This document shows, in pieces, positions 22,868 through 39,564 of a stretch of 64,000 nucleotides of DNA. Each line of letters begins with the position of its first letter. Position 1 is the first letter of the stretch. Under the pieces are notes generated by a model. That model saw only the letters and a list, made by a program, of their open reading frames with translations, made no database searches and had not been told where the DNA came from. Source of the stretch: Sorangium aterium (GTDB lineage: Bacteria > Myxococcota_A > Polyangia > Polyangiales > Polyangiaceae); assembly GCF_028368935.1 (NCBI RefSeq), contig NZ_JAQNDK010000001.1, positions 3,100,001 through 3,164,000 of the forward strand, in the 5' to 3' direction. A program made the position numbers and the translations under genes.

Positions 22868-23484
22868 AAGTCTCCTTTCCTCAGCGCGACCCGAGCGGGC
22901 AGGCAATTGCCCCCGGATGCGGCCAAGCCATCGAGGGGACCAGTATGTCCCAACACGGCGAGCGTCCAAGCAGCTTTGCTACAAAAATCACGCATCGATC
23001 GACTTTTCGGCGGGAGAATTGCGCTGATGGTAGAAATATATAGTCCTGCTTACCGAGCTCGGCGCTTGAGCTCGCCGTGAGCGCTATCCAGCCTTGAGCG
23101 CCCCGGTGAAGGAGGCTGTCCTGGCAGCGAGGCGATCGCAACCTGCGCCGCCCAGCGATAGCGCATAGGTAAAGGAAGCGCCCGCCGCAGTACCGGCCGA
23201 AGATCGCGGTGTCGATGGTCCCGGGGCTCGGAAGGCTGGCAGGGTTCGGCCAGCTCGTGTCGTCGTCGCGATCGACGACCCCGGCGGCCAGGCATGCCCC
23301 GCCGCGCTCGTCGATGCCCAGGTCGCAGGCGTCGCCGGTCTGATTGCCGTTCAGGTCGAGGATCGAGCGAGCGAACCGATCTCACCGGCGTGGAGCTCAG
23401 CCAGCGTCAACCCGCAGCAGGATTGACCTCGCGGACGCCAGGTTCCTAGGATGCCTGGCCCCTGAAATTTCAGGAGGGCCATCC
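22868..23484. other. Intergenic region with a thrombospondin-repeat-like remnant
   Basis: About 600 bases. The left end (22950-23050) is relatively AT-rich and is probably the sodC promoter. The right part holds the remnant listed next. I see no other structure. Confidence 0.5.
23150..23381 (-). pseudogene. Fragment of a secreted protein with a thrombospondin-type-3-like Asp motif
   Basis: A minus-strand frame open from 23381 reads ILDLNGNQTGDACDLGIDER, then GGACLAAGVVDRDDDTSWPN and GTIDTAIFGRYCGGRF. The D-x-N-x-N-x-x-G-D-A-C-D pattern is like thrombospondin type 3 or surface-protein calcium motifs. It has no start codon and a stop just upstream, so it is a remnant cut from a larger cell-surface protein. 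Confidence 0.45.
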
Positions 23485-24579
23485 ATGACATTCATCACGC
23501 TGGCACATTCCTCGGGCAACCGCCCGCCTCTTTACATTCGACCTCTCGCCATCGAATCTCTATTACGAGAGGAGAAGGGAACGCTCCTCAATGAACTTCA
23601 TGGGCGACGCTACCTGGAAAGTCGCATGGTCGAATCCTTGTCAAGTACCATCCAAGGAGACGACCCATTCGCAAAAATTCCATTCTCAAAGAACTCGATA
23701 CGCACATGGGGACATATTCGCCTCAGCGCAATCGAGTACATCACGAGCATCAACGACGCAACGACGGTCCACACGTCAAGCGGCCGAGATTACATGGCCG
23801 CAGAGTCGCCGAGCGAGTTGATGGCCAGGTTCCCCGACGAGACATTCGATTGCATGCACAGCAACGAGGGACAAGTCATTTACTTTCGTCGCGAGCGATT
23901 GCTCGGAGCGTCTCCCCTCGAGGCTTCGTCCACCTACGTTTACACCTTCGACAGCCGGGAGAGCGTGCACAGCGACCAGCTCGAGCCGAACTGGACGACG
24001 AACATGACAGTCGCTCAGGTCAAAGGCGGTCGAGCATTCTTCCGGGCGAACCGGATAAAAGGATTCCGGACGGACCGAAGCGGAACCATTGAATTACACG
24101 GCGCAGTCAAGCTTGCAGGCCTACCGGCCGAGGCTGTGCTGAAAGCATGCCCGATCGCGCACCCGGTGTCTTTCGCGCAATGCGCCGCCGGACAAGGCGG
24201 ATCGGAACATCGATACGATTGGGTGCTGGATCGGGACACGATCCACGCGATTGTCCCGAGAAATCTGGGGTTGGGCCTGGACACCCACATCGGCACCCCA
24301 TTTCTAGGCCTCGACACGGTCGATCCGATCGACAAACTCATAGCTCAGCTTGATTTGACGCCATTCATTCGACTGACTCGCAATTCGGACGGACGCGGCA
24401 CGAACGTTCCATCAGACTACAACAGGCAGCATCCGTGGGCCTACTATCGCCCGGAATCTATCCTGGCCATGGAAGCGAGAGGCCATGAAACAGCAATCAC
24501 GACGAGCACCCATTCGCACGTCGTCGACGAAACACCGGAGGAAGTTCTACGCTCATTCATTCATCCAGAAAGGCGATAG
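23485..24579 (+). CDS. Protein of unknown function with repeated FlbD-like modules
   Basis: 364 residues from ATG 23485, with AGGAGG 7-12 bases upstream. Base composition is clearly less GC-rich than its neighbours, suggesting transfer. Segments at about 78-118 (IEYITSINDATTVHTSSGRD then YMAAESPSELMARF) and 320-362 (SILAMEARGHETAITTSTHS then VVDETPEEVLRSFI) repeat one pattern, and residues 1-30 and about 190-230 (FFRANRIKGFRTDRSGTIEL) look related. The pattern resembles the small flagellar FlbD-type fold (I-E-x-I, T-x-I-T-x-x-x-G, Y-x-V-x-E-x-x-E-E-h). No signal peptide or known enzyme motif. Confidence 0.6.
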   Translation: MTFITLAHSSGNRPPLYIRPLAIESLLREEKGTLLNELHGRRYLESRMVESLSSTIQGDDPFAKIPFSKNSIRTWGHIRLSAIEYITSINDATTVHTSSGRDYMAAESPSELMARFPDETFDCMHSNEGQVIYFRRERLLGASPLEASSTYVYTFDSRESVHSDQLEPNWTTNMTVAQVKGGRAFFRANRIKGFRTDRSGTIELHGAVKLAGLPAEAVLKACPIAHPVSFAQCAAGQGGSEHRYDWVLDRDTIHAIVPRNLGLGLDTHIGTPFLGLDTVDPIDKLIAQLDLTPFIRLTRNSDGRGTNVPSDYNRQHPWAYYRPESILAMEARGHETAITTSTHSHVVDETPEEVLRSFIHPERR

Positions 24580-27081: not shown

Positions 27082-29064
27082 TCATATCATCGAGAGTCGT
27101 CTCGCCTGCGGCTTCGCCTCCGTGGGCCTCATCGCCTCCGTCTCCCGGCTTGCCGATGCCACGTAGTGATTTCGGAGCAATTCATCCCTGGGTCTCAGCG
27201 CCAGGGAGATGAAGTGGCCTTCCACCTCGAGCGCGAGGCGCCGCTCGACGAGCTCACCGAGCAGCCGCAGGACCTTTTCCTGCTGGAGCCCGGCGGCCGC
27301 TGCCGCTCGCCCTGGCTCCATGCCGGCGTGGCACAGATCATAGATGCACGCCAGCTCCCCATCGAGAACCGTCTCGACGAGATCCCCGGAGCGCTCGTCC
27401 CTGATGAGCAGCTCGCCCGGGCTCACCCGGTGGACTTCCATGGCCGGGATCCCACGCTTCCACTGGACGTGCTCCTCGTACCACCCGGCAAAGCTACGCC
27501 AGCCTTCCATCACGCCGGGCTCAAACCATCCCTCGGGCGCGGAGTAGCCGTAGTATGGCACGAGGAATCGCTCGACGCCCTCCAGTCCTTCCAGATAGGT
27601 ATCGGGCCTGAGCCGCGCCATCTCATCAGGACCGAGCTGGTTGAAGAGAGGGCTTCCATAAGACAACGTATAATCCGACAGGCTGTAGCTCCCCAGGTGA
27701 GGCGTCTCCTCGATGATCCGCTGTGTCTCGGCGATATCATCCATCGTCGAGCGGGGGTGCCCGATGATCAGGTTCGAGAGCGAGCGGATGCCCAGCTCCT
27801 TCAGCCACTTTTGAACGAGGATGTTCTGCCGCGCCCTGGTCCCCTTGTTCATTCGTCGGATCAGCGACGAGGACAGGGACTCGATCCCGACCTGAGCAGC
27901 ATCGACCCCGGCCAGGGCCAGCTTTGTCCAGAACCGTTCAGGGTGGTGCGCCCGGAGCTCCATCGTCGCTGGAATCTGGATGTTGAGCCGTATCAGCTCA
28001 TCGGCATAGCCCTCCGCCCACGTGTCGCAGACGTTGTCCATGAACAGGATACGTCGCACCCCGTAGCGCTTGATCATAGCCAGCACATCCTTGACGATGT
28101 CCCCCGCGAGCCGCTTTCTGAAGCCCTCCCAGTTGACGTTGATGCCGCAAAAATCGCACTTGGCGAAGCATCCCCGGCTCCCCTCGACGGGAAGCAGCAC
28201 GTTCTTGCTGAACGGTCGGATCGCCTCCGCGCCCCGGAACACCCTCCTGATGGCCCGGAAGTACTCCTCCAGATCCGGGACGCCGAGGTCTCGGATGGAT
28301 ACGAGCTGCGAAGCGAAGTTCGCCGGATCTCTCTTGAAGAGATCCATCTGGTTGGTCTGGATGTCATAGATCCCCTGCACCTCGCCGGGGATGCTGTCGT
28401 GGAGACGCTCCATCTCGCTCAGGGGGGTGCGCAGGTAGGCGCCCGCGAGCAGCTCCAGCTTCTTCTCCCCCTCTCCGAGGACGCCAAACCCGCGGATACC
28501 TAGCCGCTTCAGCACGTCGGCGACGCTGGTCGCCGCCGCGCTCGCCCCGCCGAACACGAAGACGCACCTGTGATCCGGGTACCTCTGGCCCAGGTAGAGG
28601 GCGCAGTAAATGGACGAATAGACCTGGTTGTAATTGAGCGTGAAGCCGACCAGGTTCACGCCGTTCCGGATGAGCTCCGGCCCCAGCGCGGCGTCGATGT
28701 ACCTGTGCGTCGCGCTCCTCAGGCGGGTCAGCGAGCGCTTCGTGAGCTTGACGCGACCGCGCTTCGGAGCGTTCACGATCGAGAGCAGCTCGTCGAGGGA
28801 GGGGGCCCCCTCGACGGACCCGCGCGGCCTGATGAACCGCTCCAGAGCGAGGAGGAAGTACGGGAACTCCCTGAACTCCGAGAGCTCGGAGTACAGGTCC
28901 GACTCGCCGGCGTCGAGGAACACCGAGCAAAATGCAGAGTATGTGTTGGTCGTGAAACGGCCGGGGAACGCGACATCGAGGTGCGCCTTCAGCGCGCCGA
29001 GCTGGACCGAGGGAACATAGACATCGGCCCACGGCATCGACACCAGGTGTGTCTTGATCCTCAT
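27082..29064 (-). CDS. B12-binding radical SAM RiPP maturase
   Basis: 660 residues. The N-terminal part (about 1-230) looks like a cobalamin-binding domain (GVNLVGFTLNYNQVYSSIYC, then CVFVFGGASAA). The radical SAM core starts at GSRGCFAKCDFCGIN near residues 296-310, giving the CxxxCxxC [4Fe-4S] site, then VRRILFMDN and VGIESLSSSLIRRMNKG. The C-terminal 90 residues (GELACIYDLCHAG, VLRLLGELVERRLALEVEG) look like a small winged-helix, possibly precursor-binding, domain. It matches RiPP maturation radical SAM protein 1 in layout. Last gene of the cluster; probable reaction is a C-methylation or other radical change on the peptide. Confidence 0.85.
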   Translation of the reverse strand: MRIKTHLVSMPWADVYVPSVQLGALKAHLDVAFPGRFTTNTYSAFCSVFLDAGESDLYSELSEFREFPYFLLALERFIRPRGSVEGAPSLDELLSIVNAPKRGRVKLTKRSLTRLRSATHRYIDAALGPELIRNGVNLVGFTLNYNQVYSSIYCALYLGQRYPDHRCVFVFGGASAAATSVADVLKRLGIRGFGVLGEGEKKLELLAGAYLRTPLSEMERLHDSIPGEVQGIYDIQTNQMDLFKRDPANFASQLVSIRDLGVPDLEEYFRAIRRVFRGAEAIRPFSKNVLLPVEGSRGCFAKCDFCGINVNWEGFRKRLAGDIVKDVLAMIKRYGVRRILFMDNVCDTWAEGYADELIRLNIQIPATMELRAHHPERFWTKLALAGVDAAQVGIESLSSSLIRRMNKGTRARQNILVQKWLKELGIRSLSNLIIGHPRSTMDDIAETQRIIEETPHLGSYSLSDYTLSYGSPLFNQLGPDEMARLRPDTYLEGLEGVERFLVPYYGYSAPEGWFEPGVMEGWRSFAGWYEEHVQWKRGIPAMEVHRVSPGELLIRDERSGDLVETVLDGELACIYDLCHAGMEPGRAAAAAGLQQEKVLRLLGELVERRLALEVEGHFISLALRPRDELLRNHYVASASRETEAMRPTEAKPQARRLSMI

Positions 29065-29139
29065 GGCGACCCCCCATCGATTGAATTCTTGTTTCCCGTG
29101 CCGCGAATCGCCGCTCTCTTCCTGAACATAGCGCCTCGA

Positions 29140-29739
29140 TCACGCATCTCGCGGCCTGCTCGATCGAACCTGCCGGGCGTCCTTCGCGGACGGCGTATAC
29201 TTCATGGCCAGCGTGAACCGCGACACGGGGCACACCCTGCTCGGAATGCCCGCGCAGTGCCATGTCGCGCCCGGGAAGATCAAGACGCGCCCAGGGGCCG
29301 GCAAGACAGCCAGGTTGAAGGCCCCCGAGTCGTCGTAGAGCATCGTCTCTCCCCCCCATTCGCGGTCCCAGCGCGGGTTGGCGTAGTAGAGCACCGTCAC
29401 GTCTCGGCGACGCGGCTTGCAGTCGACGTGCGGGTAGTTGACGTCGCCGTAGGACGTCTGGTTGACGTACGCCTTGTAGAGGTGGTGGGGCACGTCCGCG
29501 CAGCACTGCTTCATGAGGCCGAAGACGTCCTCGTAGAAGAAGAGCGACTGGAACGCCTCGAGGTCCACGAAGTGCGCCACCATCTTCGGGAAATGATCCG
29601 CGCTCGAGCTGAGCTGCCCTCGGTAGTAGACGTAGGACTCCGAGAGGGTCCGGTAGACCTGCTCGATCTTCTTCTTGCGGAAGAGGTGATCCACGAGGAT
29701 GACCTTGCGTCCGTTGACCGTCGTTTCTTGTATCTTCAT
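29140..29739 (-). CDS. 2-oxoglutarate/Fe(II)-dependent oxygenase
   Basis: 199 residues from ATG 29739. The facial triad is visible: NYPHVDCKP (His-x-Asp near residues 104-106) and TWHCAGI (distal His near 160), followed by the 2OG-binding Arg in SRFTLAMKY. The segment DVTVLYYANPRWDREWGGET is typical of prolyl-4-hydroxylase-like double-stranded beta-helix enzymes. No signal peptide. It is 75 bases upstream of the radical SAM gene and 64 bases after the glycosyltransferase, so it is probably a tailoring hydroxylase of the same pathway. Confidence 0.85.
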   Translation of the reverse strand: MKIQETTVNGRKVILVDHLFRKKKIEQVYRTLSESYVYYRGQLSSSADHFPKMVAHFVDLEAFQSLFFYEDVFGLMKQCCADVPHHLYKAYVNQTSYGDVNYPHVDCKPRRRDVTVLYYANPRWDREWGGETMLYDDSGAFNLAVLPAPGRVLIFPGATWHCAGIPSRVCPVSRFTLAMKYTPSAKDARQVRSSRPRDA

Positions 29740-29803
29740 CGCCCGCGATGTCTCAGGGAACAGAGGCCAGCATCCGGGAGGGGACGGGGAGCGCCGTGAA
29801 GCC

Positions 29804-31087
29804 CTATGCGCTGACGAATCCATGGAACATGGTATGTAGATCCTCCATGTACTCGTCGAAATCCTCCCACATGCGCGAGAGGAGGAGGCCACGACGGCCG
29901 AGCTCCTCCGCCTCCCTGGGGTTGCGCGCGACCCATTCGAGCTTGCTGGCCAAGGCTTCGTGGTCCCTCGGATCCGGCACGAGGAGGCAGTTCTCTCCGT
30001 CCACGAGGCCCTCCTTGTAACCTCGTTTCTTGTGGATATCACCCGACAGGACGAGGCAGCTGCCGCACGCGAGCACCTCTCTCGGTACGCCCGGCGTGTG
30101 GTAGTCGATGAAGAAGTCTCGCTCCAGGAAGCACGTCGCCGTGGTGGCGTTGATGAGGCTCGGGATCACCCAGTTCGGCATGAACGGGAGCAGCCAGACG
30201 TTCTCCTCCACCCGGTTTTCGCGGATGAACGCGGCGAGCTCGCGGCAGCTTTTCTCGGCGCCGCCGCACATCATGATCGCCTGGACGTCGACGCCCCGGC
30301 GCTGCACCATCCCCAGCGCCCGGATGAAGTCGAACATGCCCTTCGCATGATCGATCTTGCCGTACATCCCGAGCGTGGGGACACGGGGATCGAACGTCTT
30401 CGGGGCGGATTCGCGGAAGCACGCATGGAGCCAGTCGTGGCCGGCGAGCGCCTCCGCCAGGCGCTCGTTCACGTCGAGCCTCGGCGCGCCGGGGCGGAAG
30501 CAGTGCGTGGGGAGGGAGTCGGAGCCGAGGTGGTAGAGCCGCCTCTTCTTCACTCCGAGCCCCACGAAGAGGTCATCGAAGTGCTTCGCCGTCACGACCC
30601 TGTGCGCCCGCTTCAGGATCTCGGCGTAGGAGGTCCTCAGCCACGGCCTCGTCATCAGGACCGAGATGTCGCTCCCCGCGTGCGCCAGGACGCAGGGGAC
30701 CCCCGTCCATTGCGCCGCGAGAGATGCAGCCATCCCGTACGGTTCCAGGTAGTAGGCGTAGATCAGATCGCAGGCGTGCTCCCTGACGATGTCCGTCGCC
30801 ATGGAGGCCAGCTTGGTCACGTACGGGTTCGCCCAGGGGACGTAGAGGTCGTACGCAGGGCGCTCCGACGAGACGCAGCGGACGGAGCCGCCGTTCGCGA
30901 AGCGGATGTGCAGCCGCCGCTTGTCGGATGGGGTCATGACCATCCGGTAATCTGCCTCTGCTTCGTCGGCGTTCGTGACGACCCAGACCTGATTGCCGCG
31001 CTTGGCGAGCGCATACGCCATCCAGTAGGTCCGGGTGCTGACGCCCCCTTGAATGGGTGGGAACTTGCTGATGATGCAGATCTTCAT
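29804..31087 (-). CDS. GT4-family glycosyltransferase
   Basis: 427 residues with a GT-B fold. The N-terminal Rossmann domain starts KICIISKFPPIQGGVSTRTY with the GGV loop. The C-terminal donor domain has LGMYGKIDHAKGMFDFIRAL and the nucleotide-sugar motif region FIDYHTPGVPREVLACGSCL with the conserved Glu in the E-x7-E position. Likely retaining transfer of a hexose from a nucleotide sugar. It follows the MNIO partner gene by 46 bases on the same strand. A peptide-glycosylating role is inferred only from context; a capsule-type enzyme would be the default elsewhere. Confidence 0.85.
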   Translation of the reverse strand: MKICIISKFPPIQGGVSTRTYWMAYALAKRGNQVWVVTNADEAEADYRMVMTPSDKRRLHIRFANGGSVRCVSSERPAYDLYVPWANPYVTKLASMATDIVREHACDLIYAYYLEPYGMAASLAAQWTGVPCVLAHAGSDISVLMTRPWLRTSYAEILKRAHRVVTAKHFDDLFVGLGVKKRRLYHLGSDSLPTHCFRPGAPRLDVNERLAEALAGHDWLHACFRESAPKTFDPRVPTLGMYGKIDHAKGMFDFIRALGMVQRRGVDVQAIMMCGGAEKSCRELAAFIRENRVEENVWLLPFMPNWVIPSLINATTATCFLERDFFIDYHTPGVPREVLACGSCLVLSGDIHKKRGYKEGLVDGENCLLVPDPRDHEALASKLEWVARNPREAEELGRRGLLLSRMWEDFDEYMEDLHTMFHGFVSA

Positions 31088-31133
31088 CGCGCAAATCTCC
31101 TCGCTGCAGGCGCAGGCGTGCCCGGCGTCCGCC

Positions 31134-31778
31134 TCAGCTCAGCTCGCCTCTCAGCAGATTGCAGGGATCCTCGGCGGCTTGCTTCGAGAGCCGGTGCGTC
31201 ATCACGCTCTGCCTGTCGCGGGAGTAGTAGATCGCGTAGATGGATTCTCCTCTGCCCTGAAGGACGCTGATGCGATCGATGGCTGGATACAGGTCCATGA
31301 CGTTCGAGGCGAGCTTCATGCAATAGAGGTGGCCGCTGTCGTGGATCCCGAAGCGGGAGGTGTCTACCTTGAGGCGCCCCGTGATCCGGGGCCGCGCCTG
31401 ATGAAACTGCGCGAGGGCGACCGCCCGCTCCACCCTCAGGAGGTCTTTGTACAGACATGCGCCGTCCAGGCGCTCCGCCCATGAATACAGGACGCCGAAG
31501 ATCTTCTTGATCATGGCGCCTCGATCGGTATCCATGCTCACTTGAGAATAGAGGCAGTCCCAGAGCCGCCGCCTCCTCGCCGTGAGGCCGCAGAACACCG
31601 GGTAATGGCTCTTGACCGAGCGCTGTATCGAAGCCCTGAACGACGTGGCGATGCTCGCCAGGCACGACTCGCTGTACTGGGATAGCTCGTCGCCGAGCTC
31701 AGCTCCCTCGACAGGCCCACCCTGGACGAGGCTCCTCAGGTAGCGCTCCTGCCAGCGGGCGACGCTCGCGCGGCTCAT
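31134..31778 (-). CDS. Probable MNIO partner protein (HvfC/TglI/MbnC-like)
   Basis: 214 residues starting at ATG 31778, which overlaps the MNIO stop as ATGA (31775-31778), so the two are translationally coupled. Residues about 20-90 are helical with SVKSHYPVFCGLTARRRRLW, and LYKDLLRVERAVALAQFHQA near residue 115-135 matches the D-L-x-R-L-E-W-A helix of DUF2063-type partners. The rest is beta-rich (HLYCMKLASNVMDLYPAIDR, YAIYYSRDRQSVMTHRLS). In known systems such a protein binds the precursor leader and forms a complex with the MNIO. Sequence is divergent; assignment rests on coupling plus these patterns. Confidence 0.7.
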   Translation of the reverse strand: MSRASVARWQERYLRSLVQGGPVEGAELGDELSQYSESCLASIATSFRASIQRSVKSHYPVFCGLTARRRRLWDCLYSQVSMDTDRGAMIKKIFGVLYSWAERLDGACLYKDLLRVERAVALAQFHQARPRITGRLKVDTSRFGIHDSGHLYCMKLASNVMDLYPAIDRISVLQGRGESIYAIYYSRDRQSVMTHRLSKQAAEDPCNLLRGELS

Positions 31779-32587
31779 CGCTGGCACATCCCTCGAATCC
31801 GGACGAGATCATCCCACACCCTGGGCAGGTCCTTGAAGCGCGCCTCGCGCTCCAGGATCACGGCCTCCGGGGTCACCCGTGTCAGGAGGTGCTCCAGCAG
31901 CTCGAAGACGACCTGGGGGACCTCGTGGTCGTGGCCATCATAATAGTAACCGTCGTGCGAGGAGCCTCCGGCGAGGTGGAGCTGCCTTATACGGTGCGCC
32001 GGCATGCGATCGATGAACGCCCTCGCGTCCAGCCCGTGGTTGAGCTGGTCGGCGTACAGGTTGTGGAGGTCGAGCAGGATGCCGCAGTCGGCCATCTCGA
32101 CGGCCCGGGCAAAGAAGTCGTCGTGGGCGATCGTCGATCGCTTCAGCTCCCACATCGTGGCGATGTTCTCGAGCAGGAACGGCGCAGCGAGGCCCTCCTG
32201 AAAGAGCTTTATGTTCTCCACGAGGATCTGCAGCGTCTCGTCGGTCCGCAGCAGCGGCAGGTTCTTCTCGAGGTCGAAATCGCCGATGCGGCAGGACGTC
32301 ATGTGATCCGAGCACCAGCGCGGGGCCAACCGATTGACGATGTCGCGACGCTGCCGCGCGTTGCGGTCGAGCCGATAGTCGGCGCTGCCCAGCGAGTTGC
32401 AGGCGAAATGAAAGCAGTACGACGTGCCGAAGTCGGAGAGTAGCCGCTTCATCTGGCCCCTCTCGAAGTGACTGTAGATGTATCGCTCCGGCTGTATTTC
32501 CAGGAAGTCGACGAGCCCCTCATCCCTGGCTCGCCACAGCAGGTCGTGAAGCTCCGGATGGTAGCTCATGCCGATGTGAACAGCCAT
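31775..32587 (-). CDS. DUF692 / MNIO (multinuclear non-heme iron-dependent oxidase), RiPP-modifying
   Basis: 270 residues, TIM-barrel enzyme of the MbnB/TglH family. Metal-ligand motifs are in order: YCFHFACNSLG, CSDHMTSCR, PFLLENIATMWE, GILLDLHNLYAD, IRQLHLAGG, YDGHDHEVP, VILERE. Start ATG 32587 has GGGAG upstream. Known members oxidise cysteines of ribosomal peptides, for example to oxazolone-thioamide or to 3-thia amino acids. The substrate is probably the repeated Cys peptide encoded 234 bases upstream. First enzyme gene of a six-gene minus-strand cluster. Confidence 0.9.
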   Translation of the reverse strand: MAVHIGMSYHPELHDLLWRARDEGLVDFLEIQPERYIYSHFERGQMKRLLSDFGTSYCFHFACNSLGSADYRLDRNARQRRDIVNRLAPRWCSDHMTSCRIGDFDLEKNLPLLRTDETLQILVENIKLFQEGLAAPFLLENIATMWELKRSTIAHDDFFARAVEMADCGILLDLHNLYADQLNHGLDARAFIDRMPAHRIRQLHLAGGSSHDGYYYDGHDHEVPQVVFELLEHLLTRVTPEAVILEREARFKDLPRVWDDLVRIRGMCQR

Positions 32588-32821
32588 CGGATCACTCCCG
32601 TGAGGAGGCCGCTGCCGCGGGCGATGAGACGTTCCTCGGGTCCACGACGTCTGCCCGAGAATCCGTGAATCCGGCTCGCCCGTCGCCGTGCGACGACATG
32701 GGTCGGGACGGGCGAAATCGCGAGGTATGCAGGGGGAGTCCTTGCAGGCGGTCGTCCCCTCCGGGGCGTGTCGTGTCACCCAGCGGCCGGAGGGAATGGC
32801 GACGCACCTCCAGCACTACGG
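32588..32821. other. Spacer between precursor peptide gene and MNIO gene
   Basis: 234 bases on the minus strand between the peptide stop and the oxidase start. A 35-codon frame (ATG 32699 to TGA 32592) exists but lacks a ribosome-binding site. In RiPP operons such spacers often hold a partial terminator that raises peptide over enzyme mRNA; I see GC-rich stems near 32752-32770 but none decisive. Confidence 0.4.
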
Positions 32822-32995
32822 CTAAATTTTGGTCTTCTTGCTCGGCGTCGGGTCGTGCCGGCAAACGTGGGCGCTGGCGGCGGGCTTCGGGATGCTGATC
32901 TTCCGCGTGATGGGCGTCGGATCATGTCGGCAAACGTGGGCGCTGGCGGCGGGCTTCGGGACGTTCACCTTCTTGGATCGGGGCGTTGTAGACAT
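32822..32995 (-). CDS. Putative RiPP precursor peptide with two repeated cores
   Basis: 57 residues from ATG 32995, which has AAGGAG 7 bases upstream. After MSTTPRS come two 23-residue units: one starting KKVNVPKPAASAHVCRHDPT (8-30), one starting RKISIPKPAASAHVCRHDPT (31-53), then KTKI. The 16 residues PKPAASAHVCRHDPTP are identical in both. Each unit has one Cys flanked by His (H-V-C-R-H-D), the only cysteines in the peptide. No signal peptide or membrane segment. Placed ahead of an MNIO operon on the same strand, it is the natural substrate candidate. The frame is open further upstream to 33205, but the ribosome-binding site supports the short form. Confidence 0.8.
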   Translation of the reverse strand: MSTTPRSKKVNVPKPAASAHVCRHDPTPITRKISIPKPAASAHVCRHDPTPSKKTKI

Positions 32996-33137: not shown

Positions 33138-34070
33138 CTAGCTCTCTTCCTCGTCGGTCGGCCCGTCGGCCGGCTCGGTGAGGGACTGGAGCACCTCCGC
33201 TGCATCGATCTCGCGGAGCCGCTTCACCAGCGCCTCGACGCGGGGCGCGATCCCCTCTCGGACGGTTGCAGCAAGGTGCGCCCCCCCTGCGGGGCAGTCT
33301 CCCCGGAAGGTCAGGTCCTCGGCGCACTCCCGCAGCGCGTCAGCCACCATCACCTCGACGAGGCGGTGCCAGGTGATCCGGTGGATCCCGGTGGAAATGT
33401 GGAGCGAGGGGCCCTCGACAGCGGTCGCCTCGTGGAGATAGCCGCGGGGGATGTACAGCGCTCCACCCGGCTGCATTTCGATCTCGCCCCAGCGCGGGGT
33501 CATCTCGCGGAGCTCGGCGGTGCGGCAGGCGTGGTGGCGGTGCAGCGGCGCCTCGAGGAGGGGCTCGTAGATGGTCCACCGCTTGCGCCCCTCGAGCTGG
33601 AGCACCACCACGTCGTGGGTATCCCAGTGGCGGGGGAAGGTCTGCGCCCCGCCCGGCGTGAGGTAAAGGTTCGTGTTGGCCTGGGCCAAGAGCGCTCCGG
33701 ACAGGGCGCTTGTGAGCGCACCGACGGCCGGGAAGCAGTCCTGCACCCCCGCGAGGAGCAGGCTACCCCCCTCCACCTCGAAGAAGCGCCGCACCCCCGC
33801 GCCGTCGAGCGCAGCGTCGGGCTCCGCCCGGAGGAAGCGTTTGGCGTCCACGTACTCCGACGTCGCGTCGATGAAGAACACCTTCTCAGGATGCACCCGG
33901 CCTTCCGCTATCGCGTCCAGCACCGCCTCGACGGTGGGCAGGTCGGCGAGGCCATCCCCGCCCTTCGGCGGTGAGGCGAGGGGCCAGTTCGGCGAGCGCC
34001 CGGAGGTGCGAGCGCCGCGGAGGAGATCGTCGAGCGAGCCGGGGATCAGCGACTCCATGGGGCAAGGCAT
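33138..34070 (-). CDS. JmjC/cupin-type 2OG-Fe(II) oxygenase (RoxA-like)
   Basis: 310 residues. The cupin core has HWDTHDVVVLQLEGRKRWTI near residue 147 (His-x-Asp iron ligands and the Lys/Trp 2OG-side motif) and GALYIPRGYLHEA near 212 (distal His). The C-terminal 60 residues are helical (VEALVKRLREIDAAEVLQSL). The family hydroxylates protein or peptide side chains, RoxA acting on ribosomal protein arginine. It lies 142 bases upstream of the precursor peptide on the same strand, so it may be an extra tailoring enzyme or only a neighbour. ATG 34058 is an alternative start. Confidence 0.8.
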   Translation of the reverse strand: MPCPMESLIPGSLDDLLRGARTSGRSPNWPLASPPKGGDGLADLPTVEAVLDAIAEGRVHPEKVFFIDATSEYVDAKRFLRAEPDAALDGAGVRRFFEVEGGSLLLAGVQDCFPAVGALTSALSGALLAQANTNLYLTPGGAQTFPRHWDTHDVVVLQLEGRKRWTIYEPLLEAPLHRHHACRTAELREMTPRWGEIEMQPGGALYIPRGYLHEATAVEGPSLHISTGIHRITWHRLVEVMVADALRECAEDLTFRGDCPAGGAHLAATVREGIAPRVEALVKRLREIDAAEVLQSLTEPADGPTDEEES

Positions 34071-34182: not shown

Positions 34183-34806
34183 TCAGCCAGCCACCCGCAC
34201 CGCCAGCGTCGCTCCCTCAGCGCTCGCCAGCCGGGCCAGCAAGCGCTCCTTCACCGCAGCCCATTCGCTCGCCAGGATCGAGAACAGCACGCTGTCACGC
34301 AGGCTGCCGTCGGCGCGCCGCATGTGCGACCGCAGCCCCCCCTCCCGGGTCCCGCCGATGCGCTGGATGGCGGCCTGGGAGCGCAGGTTGCGGACATCGG
34401 TCTTCAGCTCGATGCGCTGGCAGCCGAGTTGCTCGAAGCCATGCGTCAGCTGGAGCAGCTTGGCCTCCGTGTTGACGCGGGTGCGCTGCCACGCTGGCAC
34501 GATCCAGGTGCCGCCGACCTCGACGGACGGCAGCGCGGCGTCCACCCGGCGAATGCTGGTGCCGCCGACCAGCTCGCCCGTCGACGCGAGGCGGGTTCCG
34601 AAGGAGATCGCTTCTCCGCGGCTCTGCATCGCGAGCGCAAGGCGGATGACCTTCTCGACGTCCGCCGCATCGCGCATGGAGTAAGGGATGAACCGCCAGA
34701 CGTCGGGAGCGGACAGCGCGGCCCGCTTGATCTCGGGCAGCTGATCTTCGGACAGGGGCTGGAGCACCACGGCTTCGCCGCGGAGCGTGCTCGGGGTGAG
34801 GTGCAT
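34183..34806 (-). CDS. GNAT-family N-acetyltransferase (RimJ/RimL-like)
   Basis: 207 residues from ATG 34806. It has the RimJ/L pattern: VVLQPLSEDQLPEIKRAA, then GGTSIRRVDAALPSVEVGGT, WIVPAWQRTRVNTEAKLLQL (acetyl-CoA-binding loop region, modified) and QRIELKTDVRNLRSQAAIQR. The usual R/Q-x-x-G-x-G/A loop is changed to QRTRVNTEAK, which this subgroup often shows. Substrate unknown. Divergently transcribed from a MocR regulator across about 110 bases, which may control it. Confidence 0.82.
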   Translation of the reverse strand: MHLTPSTLRGEAVVLQPLSEDQLPEIKRAALSAPDVWRFIPYSMRDAADVEKVIRLALAMQSRGEAISFGTRLASTGELVGGTSIRRVDAALPSVEVGGTWIVPAWQRTRVNTEAKLLQLTHGFEQLGCQRIELKTDVRNLRSQAAIQRIGGTREGGLRSHMRRADGSLRDSVLFSILASEWAAVKERLLARLASAEGATLAVRVAG

Positions 34807-34895
34807 GTGGGTTCTTTCCGGGAGGCCGACCCCACCAACGAGCCGCGCCTCTCCCGGATGTTTAGCGCAGGCTGGTTGCAGCATTTCGTCCAGAT
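34807..34895. promoter_or_regulatory. Shared promoter region of the GNAT and MocR genes
   Basis: About 90-110 bases separate the two divergent starts. It contains a relatively AT-rich segment (GTGCGTTTATACTTCGAC near 34896-34913 if the MocR start is ATG 34917). MocR proteins usually regulate a divergent neighbour through repeats here, but I could not pick out a clear repeat pair. Confidence 0.35.
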
Positions 34896-38015: not shown

Positions 38016-38229
38016 ACTTCGATTTTTTCGCACGCGAGCTGGTCGGTGTGTAGATGGGCGCGTAGGCCGCCGGAAGCTTGGCCCACGGCGCAACGTGCAC
38101 CGCGCCGGCTCCAGCAGAAGCAACAGAAGCGGCACCCGAAGCCGACATGGCCCCACGACCGGGCGGCGCTCGTGCCAGCACGCACCAGCCCCTTCGCCTC
38201 CGCCCCCGGCGGGGCCGGCTTCACGTACG

Positions 38230-39564
38230 ATGGCGAGCGCCATGAGCAACCCGGAGATCGAGGCAGCGCTCGCGCTCGCGCTCGAACGCTGGGAGAAGAT
38301 GTTCCCCGTCGAGGACGAGCGCGCGAAGCTCGCGAGCTGGGATCCGCCGCACTTCGTGCCGGGGCTCGGCCTCGTGGCGGCGTTCAGCCTCTTCGAAGCG
38401 CGCACGAACCGAGGGCCGTCCGGCGAGCTGATCGTCGTGCCGCTCGCGCGGATGGGCGAGCCCGCGGCGGCGCTCGACGAGCTCGCCGCGACGCTCGAGG
38501 GGCTCAGGTCTCGCGGCGTCGCCTCGCAGCTCGACGCGCCGCTCGAGGCGACGGTGGGCCTCGCGCCGGCGCGTTACACCGAGGGCATGTTCGCGACCGA
38601 CGAGCTCGGGGCGCGCCGCCGCGCCGAGGCGCTCGCGTCGATGAACGCCCGCTTCGAGGCCGTGGCCACACGAATGAAAGAGGTCTATGGCCTGCGGCTG
38701 CCGCGCTACCTCGCGACCTTCGCGGCGTTCTGGCGCAGCCTCGACGACATGGAGCGGCAGGGGATGAGCCACCTGGGGCGCTCGCCGGGCGGGATCATGA
38801 TCTGGTTCGAGGACGGCGGGCTCGAGCGGAAGACGCGCGGCAGGCTCGACCCGCGGCTCGAGTGCCGGTTCCGCGCCGACCCGCCCGAGCTGGTCACCGT
38901 GATGTGGGGCGACTCCGACGGGCTGCACCATGGCCTGTGGTACGACGACCCCGCGGATCCGCCGACGTGCATCGCGCACAACTACGCGCGCGACTCCGCG
39001 GAGACCTGGAGAGACAGCGAGCCCACGCCCCTCGCGGTGCTCGCCGCCCGCGCGCGCGAGCTCATCTCGAGCCCTGACGAGGAGGAGCCGGCGCCGCTGC
39101 AGGTGTACGCCGCGCTCGCCGCCATCGAATGGTTCGAGGAGGCCGACCGCAAGGCCCTCGCCGAGGACCCGCCCGCGGAACGCTGGCTCGAGGCGGATCG
39201 CATCCCGACCCTCGGCACGTTCGGGCCCGCGCTGCCGCCCGGCGCCGGGAGCATCCGCGTGGGCTCGCCCGACGAGCGCGTGAAGGCGTGGAAGACGCAG
39301 CCGCCCCGCGTGCAGAAGTGGATCGAATCGGCGAAGCGCGATTGCGCCGAGGGGCGGCCCGCGGCGGCGCTGACGTTCGGGCTCGACCTGCACTGGCTCG
39401 ATAAGGAGGAATACCGCGACGCCGCGCTCGAGCTGCTGGTGATGGCGTACGAGAAGCTCGGGCGGCGCGCGCACGCGGAGACCGTGAAGGTGCATTATGC
39501 GCACCGCGATCTCCGGAGCGTGGGGGTGTTCCTCCGGCCGGGCGAGGAGGACGGCGCACCTTAG
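38230..39564 (+). CDS. Conserved protein of unknown function, possibly SUKH/DUF2228-like
   Basis: 444 residues from ATG 38230 (or ATG 38242). It is soluble with no signal peptide. The middle has PRYLATFAAFWRSLDDMERQ, GGIMIWFEDGGLERKTRGRL and PPELVTVMWGDSDGLHHGLW, then YDDPADPPTCIAHNY. The pattern of predicting a page-like knr4/SMI1 or HPF1 (DUF2228) fold is suggestive: P-x-E-h-x-T-V-h-W-G, D-G-L-H-x-G-h-W-x-D-D-P. The C-terminal 150 residues are helical. Function unknown; SUKH members can be toxin-immunity proteins, but no toxin gene is adjacent. Confidence 0.6.
   Translation: MASAMSNPEIEAALALALERWEKMFPVEDERAKLASWDPPHFVPGLGLVAAFSLFEARTNRGPSGELIVVPLARMGEPAAALDELAATLEGLRSRGVASQLDAPLEATVGLAPARYTEGMFATDELGARRRAEALASMNARFEAVATRMKEVYGLRLPRYLATFAAFWRSLDDMERQGMSHLGRSPGGIMIWFEDGGLERKTRGRLDPRLECRFRADPPELVTVMWGDSDGLHHGLWYDDPADPPTCIAHNYARDSAETWRDSEPTPLAVLAARARELISSPDEEEPAPLQVYAALAAIEWFEEADRKALAEDPPAERWLEADRIPTLGTFGPALPPGAGSIRVGSPDERVKAWKTQPPRVQKWIESAKRDCAEGRPAAALTFGLDLHWLDKEEYRDAALELLVMAYEKLGRRAHAETVKVHYAHRDLRSVGVFLRPGEEDGAP

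Follow-up and report, generated by a model that had tools for sequence, protein, structure and literature searches.

A probable multi-enzyme RiPP gene cluster of Sorangium aterium that combines an MNIO with a recurrent neighbouring glycosyltransferase

Introduction

Can one short ribosomal peptide be the common substrate of several metal-dependent enzymes and a glycosyltransferase? The question is raised by a 64,000-nucleotide stretch of Sorangium aterium DNA (contig NZ_JAQNDK010000001.1, positions 3,100,001 to 3,164,000; hereafter the window), in which six closely packed genes occupy positions 32995 to 27082 of the minus strand. An earlier note, made from the letters alone, had read these genes as a pathway for a ribosomally synthesized and post-translationally modified peptide (RiPP), with a repeated Cys-containing precursor, a multinuclear non-heme iron-dependent oxidative enzyme (MNIO), its coupled partner, a GT4 glycosyltransferase, a 2-oxoglutarate (2OG) oxygenase and a B12-dependent radical S-adenosylmethionine (SAM) enzyme. 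The gene order and coordinates proved exact, and Pfam and NCBIfam searches bore out the assignments of MNIO, GT4, 2OG oxygenase and a radical SAM enzyme of the RiPP C-methyltransferase type.

There is good support for reading the locus as a RiPP cluster with several enzymes. Our preferred reading, to which we give a probability of roughly 0.62, is a cytosolic RiPP cluster in which a precursor-MNIO-partner-GT4 module is accompanied by a B12/radical SAM enzyme, an FlmC-like 2OG oxygenase and, probably, a JmjC_2 oxygenase. The host genome is 13.5 Mb in size and contains seven MNIO genes. The features of the cluster are as follows.

33138 to 34070, minus strand: JmjC_2 (ribosomal-oxygenase-like) 2OG-Fe(II) oxygenase (PF08007, 3e-26); probable first gene of the cluster, outside the span of the earlier note
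32822 to 32995, minus strand: precursor peptide of 57 amino acids, MSTTPRSKKVNVPKPAASAHVCRHDPTPITRKISIPKPAASAHVCRHDPTPSKKTKI, without a Sec signal (translation, ribosome-binding site, repeat analysis)
32912 to 32959, minus strand: core copy 1, PKPAASAHVCRHDPTP, residues 13-28 (repeat analysis)
32843 to 32890, minus strand: core copy 2, PKPAASAHVCRHDPTP, residues 36-51 (repeat analysis)
31775 to 32587, minus strand: MNIO (DUF692) oxidase, 270 amino acids (PF05114, 1.9e-58; closest solved structure TglH, 1e-22)
31134 to 31778, minus strand: 214-amino-acid protein in the MNIO-partner slot (by position; HvfC/ApyI-like partners fill this slot in two sister clusters)
29804 to 31087, minus strand: GT4 glycosyltransferase, 427 amino acids (PF13579/PF00534 over cut-off; clade found beside MNIO-partner pairs)
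29140 to 29739, minus strand: FlmC-like 2OG-Fe(II) oxygenase, 199 amino acids (PF13640, 2.5e-10)
27082 to 29064, minus strand: cobalamin-type radical SAM enzyme, 660 amino acids, CX3CX2C (PF04055, 9.7e-17; TIGR03975, 9.7e-59, divergent)

Results

The precursor carries a duplicated core

The precursor gene is directly preceded by a strong Shine-Dalgarno sequence (AAGGAG) and encodes two 23-residue units with a common, identical 16-residue block, PKPAASAHVCRHDPTP. The extended core can be written (K/R)K(V/I)(N/S)(V/I)PKPAASAHVCRHDPTP, and the octapeptide AHVCRHDP is thus present twice. All four nucleotide differences between the two blocks are synonymous (P ~0.004 if changes were random at the block's 26% synonymous fraction). 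This pattern indicates conservation of the peptide and not of the DNA alone, and a duplication rather than a chance resemblance; selection seems to act on the duplicated peptide at the protein level. The repeated precursor and the RiPP reading of the earlier note are both supported.

Each repeat places one Cys between two His, and the core, which lacks aromatic residues, contains Asp, His and Pro. By inspection, no hydrophobic stretch of the kind expected in a signal peptide is present at the N-terminus (MSTTPRSKKVNV), and the C-terminus is KKTKI. In a survey of MNIO clusters, whether a Sec signal is present was reported to correlate with partner type, and bufferin precursors have such a signal (PMC12452194). 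The class is recognized by a short precursor with a Cys motif adjacent to an MNIO, and this arrangement is found here in one genome, with a peptide of 57 amino acids and duplicated AHVCRHDP. A search of 179 genomes of the order for precursor homologues returned chance-level matches only, the best of which reached 23 bits and contained a stop.

A divergent MNIO is followed by a protein in the partner slot

The MNIO scores 198 bits against PF05114 (cut-off 25), and the EN, LDLHN, HLAGG, DxHD and LE motifs are conserved in an alignment to TglH, the closest solved structure; both the curated cut-off and the metal-site motifs therefore place it in the class. Among NCBIfam models its best match is BufB, at 158 bits against a cut-off of 310; ApyH gives 88.7 bits (cut-off 400), and the protein lies far under the cut-offs of all named MNIO subfamilies (BufB, HvfB, ApyH, ChrH, MbnB). 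It forms a long branch (2.03) of unsure placement in a tree of 38 MNIOs, and a pattern scan of 84,980 genomes gave no relatives.

The start of the downstream gene overlaps the MNIO stop by 4 nucleotides (ATGA). Partners in MNIO clusters are recognized by a DUF2063/PME-type 1, MbnC or PME-type 2 fold. We considered and rejected assignment of the 214-residue product as a DUF2063 partner, as it has no DUF2063 match and profile comparisons remained at shuffle level. Relatives were found neither in 184 genomes of the order nor in plasmids, and a single-sequence AlphaFold model (pLDDT, the predicted local distance difference test score, of 44) was too poor for an informative Foldseek fold search. 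From its position and from the proteins that fill the same slot in the sister clusters described below, we infer that it is the MNIO partner.

A GT4 glycosyltransferase recurs beside MNIO-partner pairs

Close relatives of the GT4 enzyme found in Myxococcota are few and share its context. Below E 1e-30, 108 genomes of the family yielded one non-self relative, in a genome of the same genus (G165; 43% identity, 3e-110), and below E 1e-35, 379 genomes of the phylum yielded one further, in another family (G372; 40% identity, 1e-101). Both genes stand last in the order precursor (76 amino acids, with a Cys-rich C-terminus), MNIO, partner, GT4. In this analysis we define these proteins as an MNIO-linked GT4 clade, and in 3/3 members found (window, G165 and G372) the gene lies directly downstream of an MNIO-partner pair. 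The sister MNIOs are only 29% (G165) and 28% (G372) identical to the window protein, and the proteins in the partner slot are HvfC-like (1e-6) and ApyI-like (2.7e-4), respectively.

The sister GT4 proteins are longer than that of the window (652 and 656 versus 427 amino acids) owing to a C-terminal extension. In hhalign comparisons with MNIO partners, the two extensions gave E values of 1.8e-8 and 5e-7, whereas the best of 60 column shuffles for each gave 0.004 and 0.059. The G372 extension also matches Pfam PqqD at 4e-7, over the cut-off, and NGO1945_C at 3e-5, below it. PqqD is the archetypal RiPP recognition element (RRE). The NGO1945_C domain takes its name from NGO1945, an MNIO partner (PMC12452194). 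Where an MNIO operon encodes a glycosyltransferase fused to a peptide-recognition domain, as in the sister clusters, there is good reason to believe that the enzyme works on the peptide, and these comparisons suggest a recurring module in which a peptide glycosyltransferase is coupled to an MNIO. The link to glycosylation drawn in the earlier note is strengthened accordingly. The window GT4 may rely on the 214-residue protein or act without an RRE. Plasmid-borne GT4 homologues (31-33% identity) were in no case next to annotated MNIOs. In the open-licence literature we found no pathway that combines an MNIO with glycosylation, no sugar-modified MNIO product, and no published description of the MNIO-GT4 link or of the G165 and G372 clusters.

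The G165 cluster (C1, 359.5-368.0 kb; L136 9528-18010) encodes the 76-residue Cys-rich precursor, MNIO, HvfC-like partner and GT4 with RRE-like extension, together with an asparagine-synthetase-like enzyme, an unannotated 346-residue protein and an ATP-binding cassette (ABC) exporter. The G372 cluster (C147; L139 8562-12647) encodes a 76-residue Cys-rich precursor, MNIO, ApyI-like partner and GT4 fused to the PqqD/NGO1945_C domain. MNIO-partner pairs at G000:C4:839647-840438 (L004) and in G164 (L026/L067) group with the MNIOs of G165 and G372 (support 98/98), with no GT4 of the clade seen nearby.

The oxygenases and the radical SAM enzyme belong to families found in other RiPP clusters

The 2OG oxygenase scores 41.6 bits against PF13640 (cut-off 27), and its HxD motif and distal His are invariant among relatives. 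With 171.9 bits against the FlmC model NF052475 (below the cut-off of 240) and 37% identity to Maribacter FlmC, it is, as judged by sequence, a divergent FlmC relative. Other relatives adjoin exporters that by eye resemble the C39-peptidase type. At L089 8306-8518 (G484), a short GG-leader-like peptide lies beside an FlmC-like 2OG oxygenase and a C39-type ABC exporter (by eye). A genome scan of Maribacter flavus placed a true FlmC (297 bits) beside an FlmE/OhkG-type radical SAM enzyme (808 bits); the flm cluster is one of the DD(I/V)LF orphan RiPPs (PMC12703449). The Maribacter locus (L103 2837-18543) contains two tandem precursors ending in DEDDILF, the FlmE/OhkG radical SAM and FlmC genes, a Cupin_8/JmjC gene, two JmjC_2 oxygenases, a subtilase-like open reading frame (ORF; by eye), a methyltransferase and an ABC exporter.

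The radical SAM enzyme aligns over its full length (residues 6-623) to the RiPP C-methyltransferase model TIGR03975, at 199.4 bits against a cut-off of 281.85; ApyD gives 17 bits against a cut-off of 750. It has a plain CX3CX2C motif and lacks the CWWGxxxxC insertion (CWWGxxxxCxFC) seen in seven aligned myxobacterial relatives. We predict a B12-type enzyme of the RiPP C-methyltransferase kind, divergent from TIGR03975. Its closest relative is in L076, beside a Nif11 precursor and a JmjC_2 gene. This Nif11-leader RiPP cluster (L076 1899-10039, G468) encodes a SPASM-type radical SAM enzyme, a TIGR03975 radical SAM enzyme (611 bits), the JmjC_2 protein and, by eye, a carbamoyltransferase-like protein.

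A JmjC_2 gene missing from the earlier note (34070-33138) lies on the same strand, 142 nucleotides upstream of the precursor. The closest solved structures to its product are NO66 (4e-19) and MINA53 (3e-15), both histidyl hydroxylases. Homologues are found in the L076 Nif11 cluster with the TIGR03975 radical SAM enzyme and in the Maribacter DD(I/V)LF cluster with FlmC, and the JmjC hydroxylase BipG acts in the biphenomycin pathway (PMC12707348). Because the gene is adjacent, has homologues in RiPP clusters and belongs to a group with a role in biphenomycin pathways, we counted it as a probable cluster member. Given the two His in each repeat, histidine is a plausible target for this enzyme.

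Surroundings of the cluster

The precursor and MNIO genes are separated by 234 nucleotides, and the gaps downstream of the MNIO are -4, 46, 64 and 75 nucleotides in gene order. GC content at third codon positions (GC3) is uniform across the cluster (0.83-0.89), as expected for real genes. The overall GC content of the six genes (63-65%) is lower than that of the window (70%), but their GC3 is that of the host, and we do not claim a foreign island by composition. An attenuator was sought in the 234-nucleotide gap, where folding was no more stable than in shuffled sequences (z 0.74).

The immediate flanks examined (GNAT, a MocR-type regulator, LysR, a nitroreductase and a PETase-like hydrolase) contain neither an exporter nor a protease. 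The flanking MocR gene has only ~40% relatives in sister genomes, so synteny could not be used to locate an insertion site. The GNAT acetyltransferase gene (34183-34884, minus strand), 112 nucleotides upstream of the JmjC_2 gene, may or may not be a cluster member. Further away, a 411-codon ORF without a Pfam match (23344-24579, plus strand) has a GC3 of 0.64 in surroundings of ~0.8-0.95 and is possibly foreign DNA, and a gene at 38095-39564 (plus strand) encodes a bacterial protein that matches Pfam HPF1 (histone PARylation factor 1; E 1.5e-12).

Discussion

Mixed metal chemistry is known from several MNIO pathways (pbs, bpm/bip, apy and pes, with std adding an MNIO to other RiPP enzymes). 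In biphenomycin-type clusters, two hydroxylases (one JmjC, one alphaKG-HExxH) accompany an MNIO, an RRE partner and a B12-radical SAM enzyme (PMC12257519, PMC12707348); an MNIO, a B12-radical SAM enzyme and a cytochrome P450 are found together in aminopyruvatide clusters (PMC11117315). The statement in the earlier note that known MNIO pathways contain no such mix was therefore too strong. The new element here is the MNIO-GT4 module; the mixture of metal chemistries alongside an MNIO is already known in kind.

These precedents allow a different reading of the locus, in which the MNIO would act on a non-Cys residue (Asp, His or Pro), the radical SAM enzyme would crosslink or methylate, and the Cys would serve for recognition only. 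The biphenomycin-type clusters (pbs, bpm/bip) share with ours an MNIO with an adjacent small protein in the partner position, a B12-radical SAM enzyme, JmjC/2OG-type hydroxylases and a single precursor, and the aminopyruvatide (apy) clusters share an MNIO, a protein in the partner position and a B12-radical SAM enzyme in a short operon. The apy precursor contains a conserved Cys that is required yet unmodified, and Asp, His and Pro are all available in our non-aromatic core. However, the window cluster lacks the FHAFRF-like or YHxYxY precursor motif by which biphenomycin-type clusters are recognized (PMC12257519), as well as arginase, alphaKG-HExxH and TldD protease genes, and it has an extra GT4, an FlmC-like 2OG oxygenase and a repeated, Cys/His/Pro-rich core. 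Relative to the aminopyruvatides, it lacks the P450, the methyltransferase and the C-terminal Asp, the peptide ending instead in KKTKI, and has GT4, 2OG and JmjC genes; its MNIO is not of the ApyH type, and both the ApyH and ApyD scores are far under their cut-offs. We consider this reading unlikely.

Other known systems resemble parts of the locus. The TglHI pearlin/thiaglutamate pair provides the closest solved MNIO and has a partner without a DUF2063 signature, but the window core is not C-terminal and extra enzymes are present; the flanks show no sign of the amino-acid-adding machinery that we take to belong to the TglHI pathway. The DD(I/V)LF orphan RiPPs (flm, ohk; PMC12703449) share an FlmC-like 2OG oxygenase and, in the Maribacter relative, JmjC_2 genes, whereas they use a SPASM radical SAM enzyme and a peptide arginase, have no MNIO that we could see, and have unrelated precursors. 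The G165 and G372 clusters share the precursor-MNIO-partner-GT4 order but differ in the RRE-like domain fused to GT4, in their 76-residue Cys-rich precursors and in showing no 2OG or radical SAM gene; G165 also differs in its asparagine-synthetase-like enzyme and ABC exporter.

Do the genes of the window form one pathway? The complete set was present in no other genome searched and is a one-genome cluster in these data. Similarity searches around the closest MNIOs of the order gave no related radical SAM, 2OG or GT4 gene, an MNIO was absent from the vicinity of eleven radical SAM relatives, and no relative of the radical SAM or 2OG enzyme was found beside an MNIO. The earlier note had named separation of the six genes in related genomes as grounds for abandoning its proposal: the 2OG and radical SAM genes do separate, while precursor, MNIO, partner and GT4 recur together. 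The precursor-MNIO-partner-GT4 set looks like a recurrent module to which the 2OG, radical SAM and JmjC genes are additions specific to the window cluster. It could also be an operon of its own beside an unrelated 2OG/radical SAM pair and an unrelated JmjC gene, as recurrence limited to the first four genes and the occurrence of radical SAM and 2OG relatives away from MNIOs would suggest. Against this, the genes lie on one strand with gaps of just 64 and 75 nucleotides, and other RiPP clusters use enzymes of the 2OG, radical SAM and JmjC families, so that a shared pathway is likelier than accidental proximity. Two adjacent functions are, in our judgment, quite improbable. Similarly improbable is a bufferin-type metal-binding RiPP, in which the MNIO would make a thiooxazole or similar group on each repeat Cys for copper and the other genes would be accessory or unrelated: BufB is the best NCBIfam match and a Cys flanked by two His could bind metal, but the score is far below the cut-off, the BufB-equivalog MNIO that marks bufferins and their DUF2063 partner and precursor Sec signal (PMC12452194) are not found here, and the extra enzymes are not bufferin-like.

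Several observations weigh against our preferred reading of a single cytosolic pathway. Because the exact set occurs in just one of the genomes searched, a single operon has to carry the case that the 2OG, radical SAM and JmjC enzymes work with the MNIO; the JmjC_2 oxygenase is no more than a probable member. The window MNIO does not group reliably with those of the two GT4 sister clusters, the precursor is unlike their Cys-rich precursors, and the window GT4 ends before the RRE-like extension and so lacks it. The 214-residue protein has no Pfam, NCBIfam or PDB sequence match and no homology by phmmer, and hhalign profile comparison with the partners of other MNIOs performed no better than shuffles; the 'coupled partner' of the earlier note thus holds by position (the 4-nucleotide overlap and the sister-cluster slot) and not by homology, which was sought and not found. 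Finally, a consensus scan of the cluster revealed no promoter-like signal and no operon-end terminator.

For the single pathway that we favour, we infer the following reactions, target residues and products. The repeated basic, beta-strand-like stretch KVNVP/KISIP may be a docking sequence. Oxidation by the MNIO and its partner would affect a single residue of each AHVCRHDP copy; Cys is the likeliest, and Asp and His are the other candidates. Side-chain hydroxylation (of His, Arg, Pro or Asp) would fall to the JmjC and 2OG enzymes, and the B12-radical SAM enzyme would act on an unactivated carbon, by C-methylation or crosslinking. The sugar acceptor of the GT4 enzyme would be a hydroxyl or thiol group, either native (Ser, Thr, Cys) or newly installed. 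Since the cluster contains neither a protease nor an exporter, release and export would depend on proteins encoded elsewhere in the genome.

More broadly, there is a somewhat less than even chance that these clusters represent a glycosylated MNIO-RiPP class, in which a GT4 enzyme (with an RRE-like fusion in some members) glycosylates an MNIO-processed peptide. The window would be its most elaborate member, with an MNIO, two 2OG oxygenases, a divergent B12-radical SAM enzyme and a GT4 acting on a two-copy AHVCRHDP core. The recurrence of MNIO and GT4, together with the RRE-like fusion, provides a testable route to a sugar-modified MNIO product and a new handle for genome mining. In the window cluster, one short repeated core would be the target of a glycosyltransferase and of as many as four oxidising or radical enzymes that depend on metals, which makes their order of action testable.

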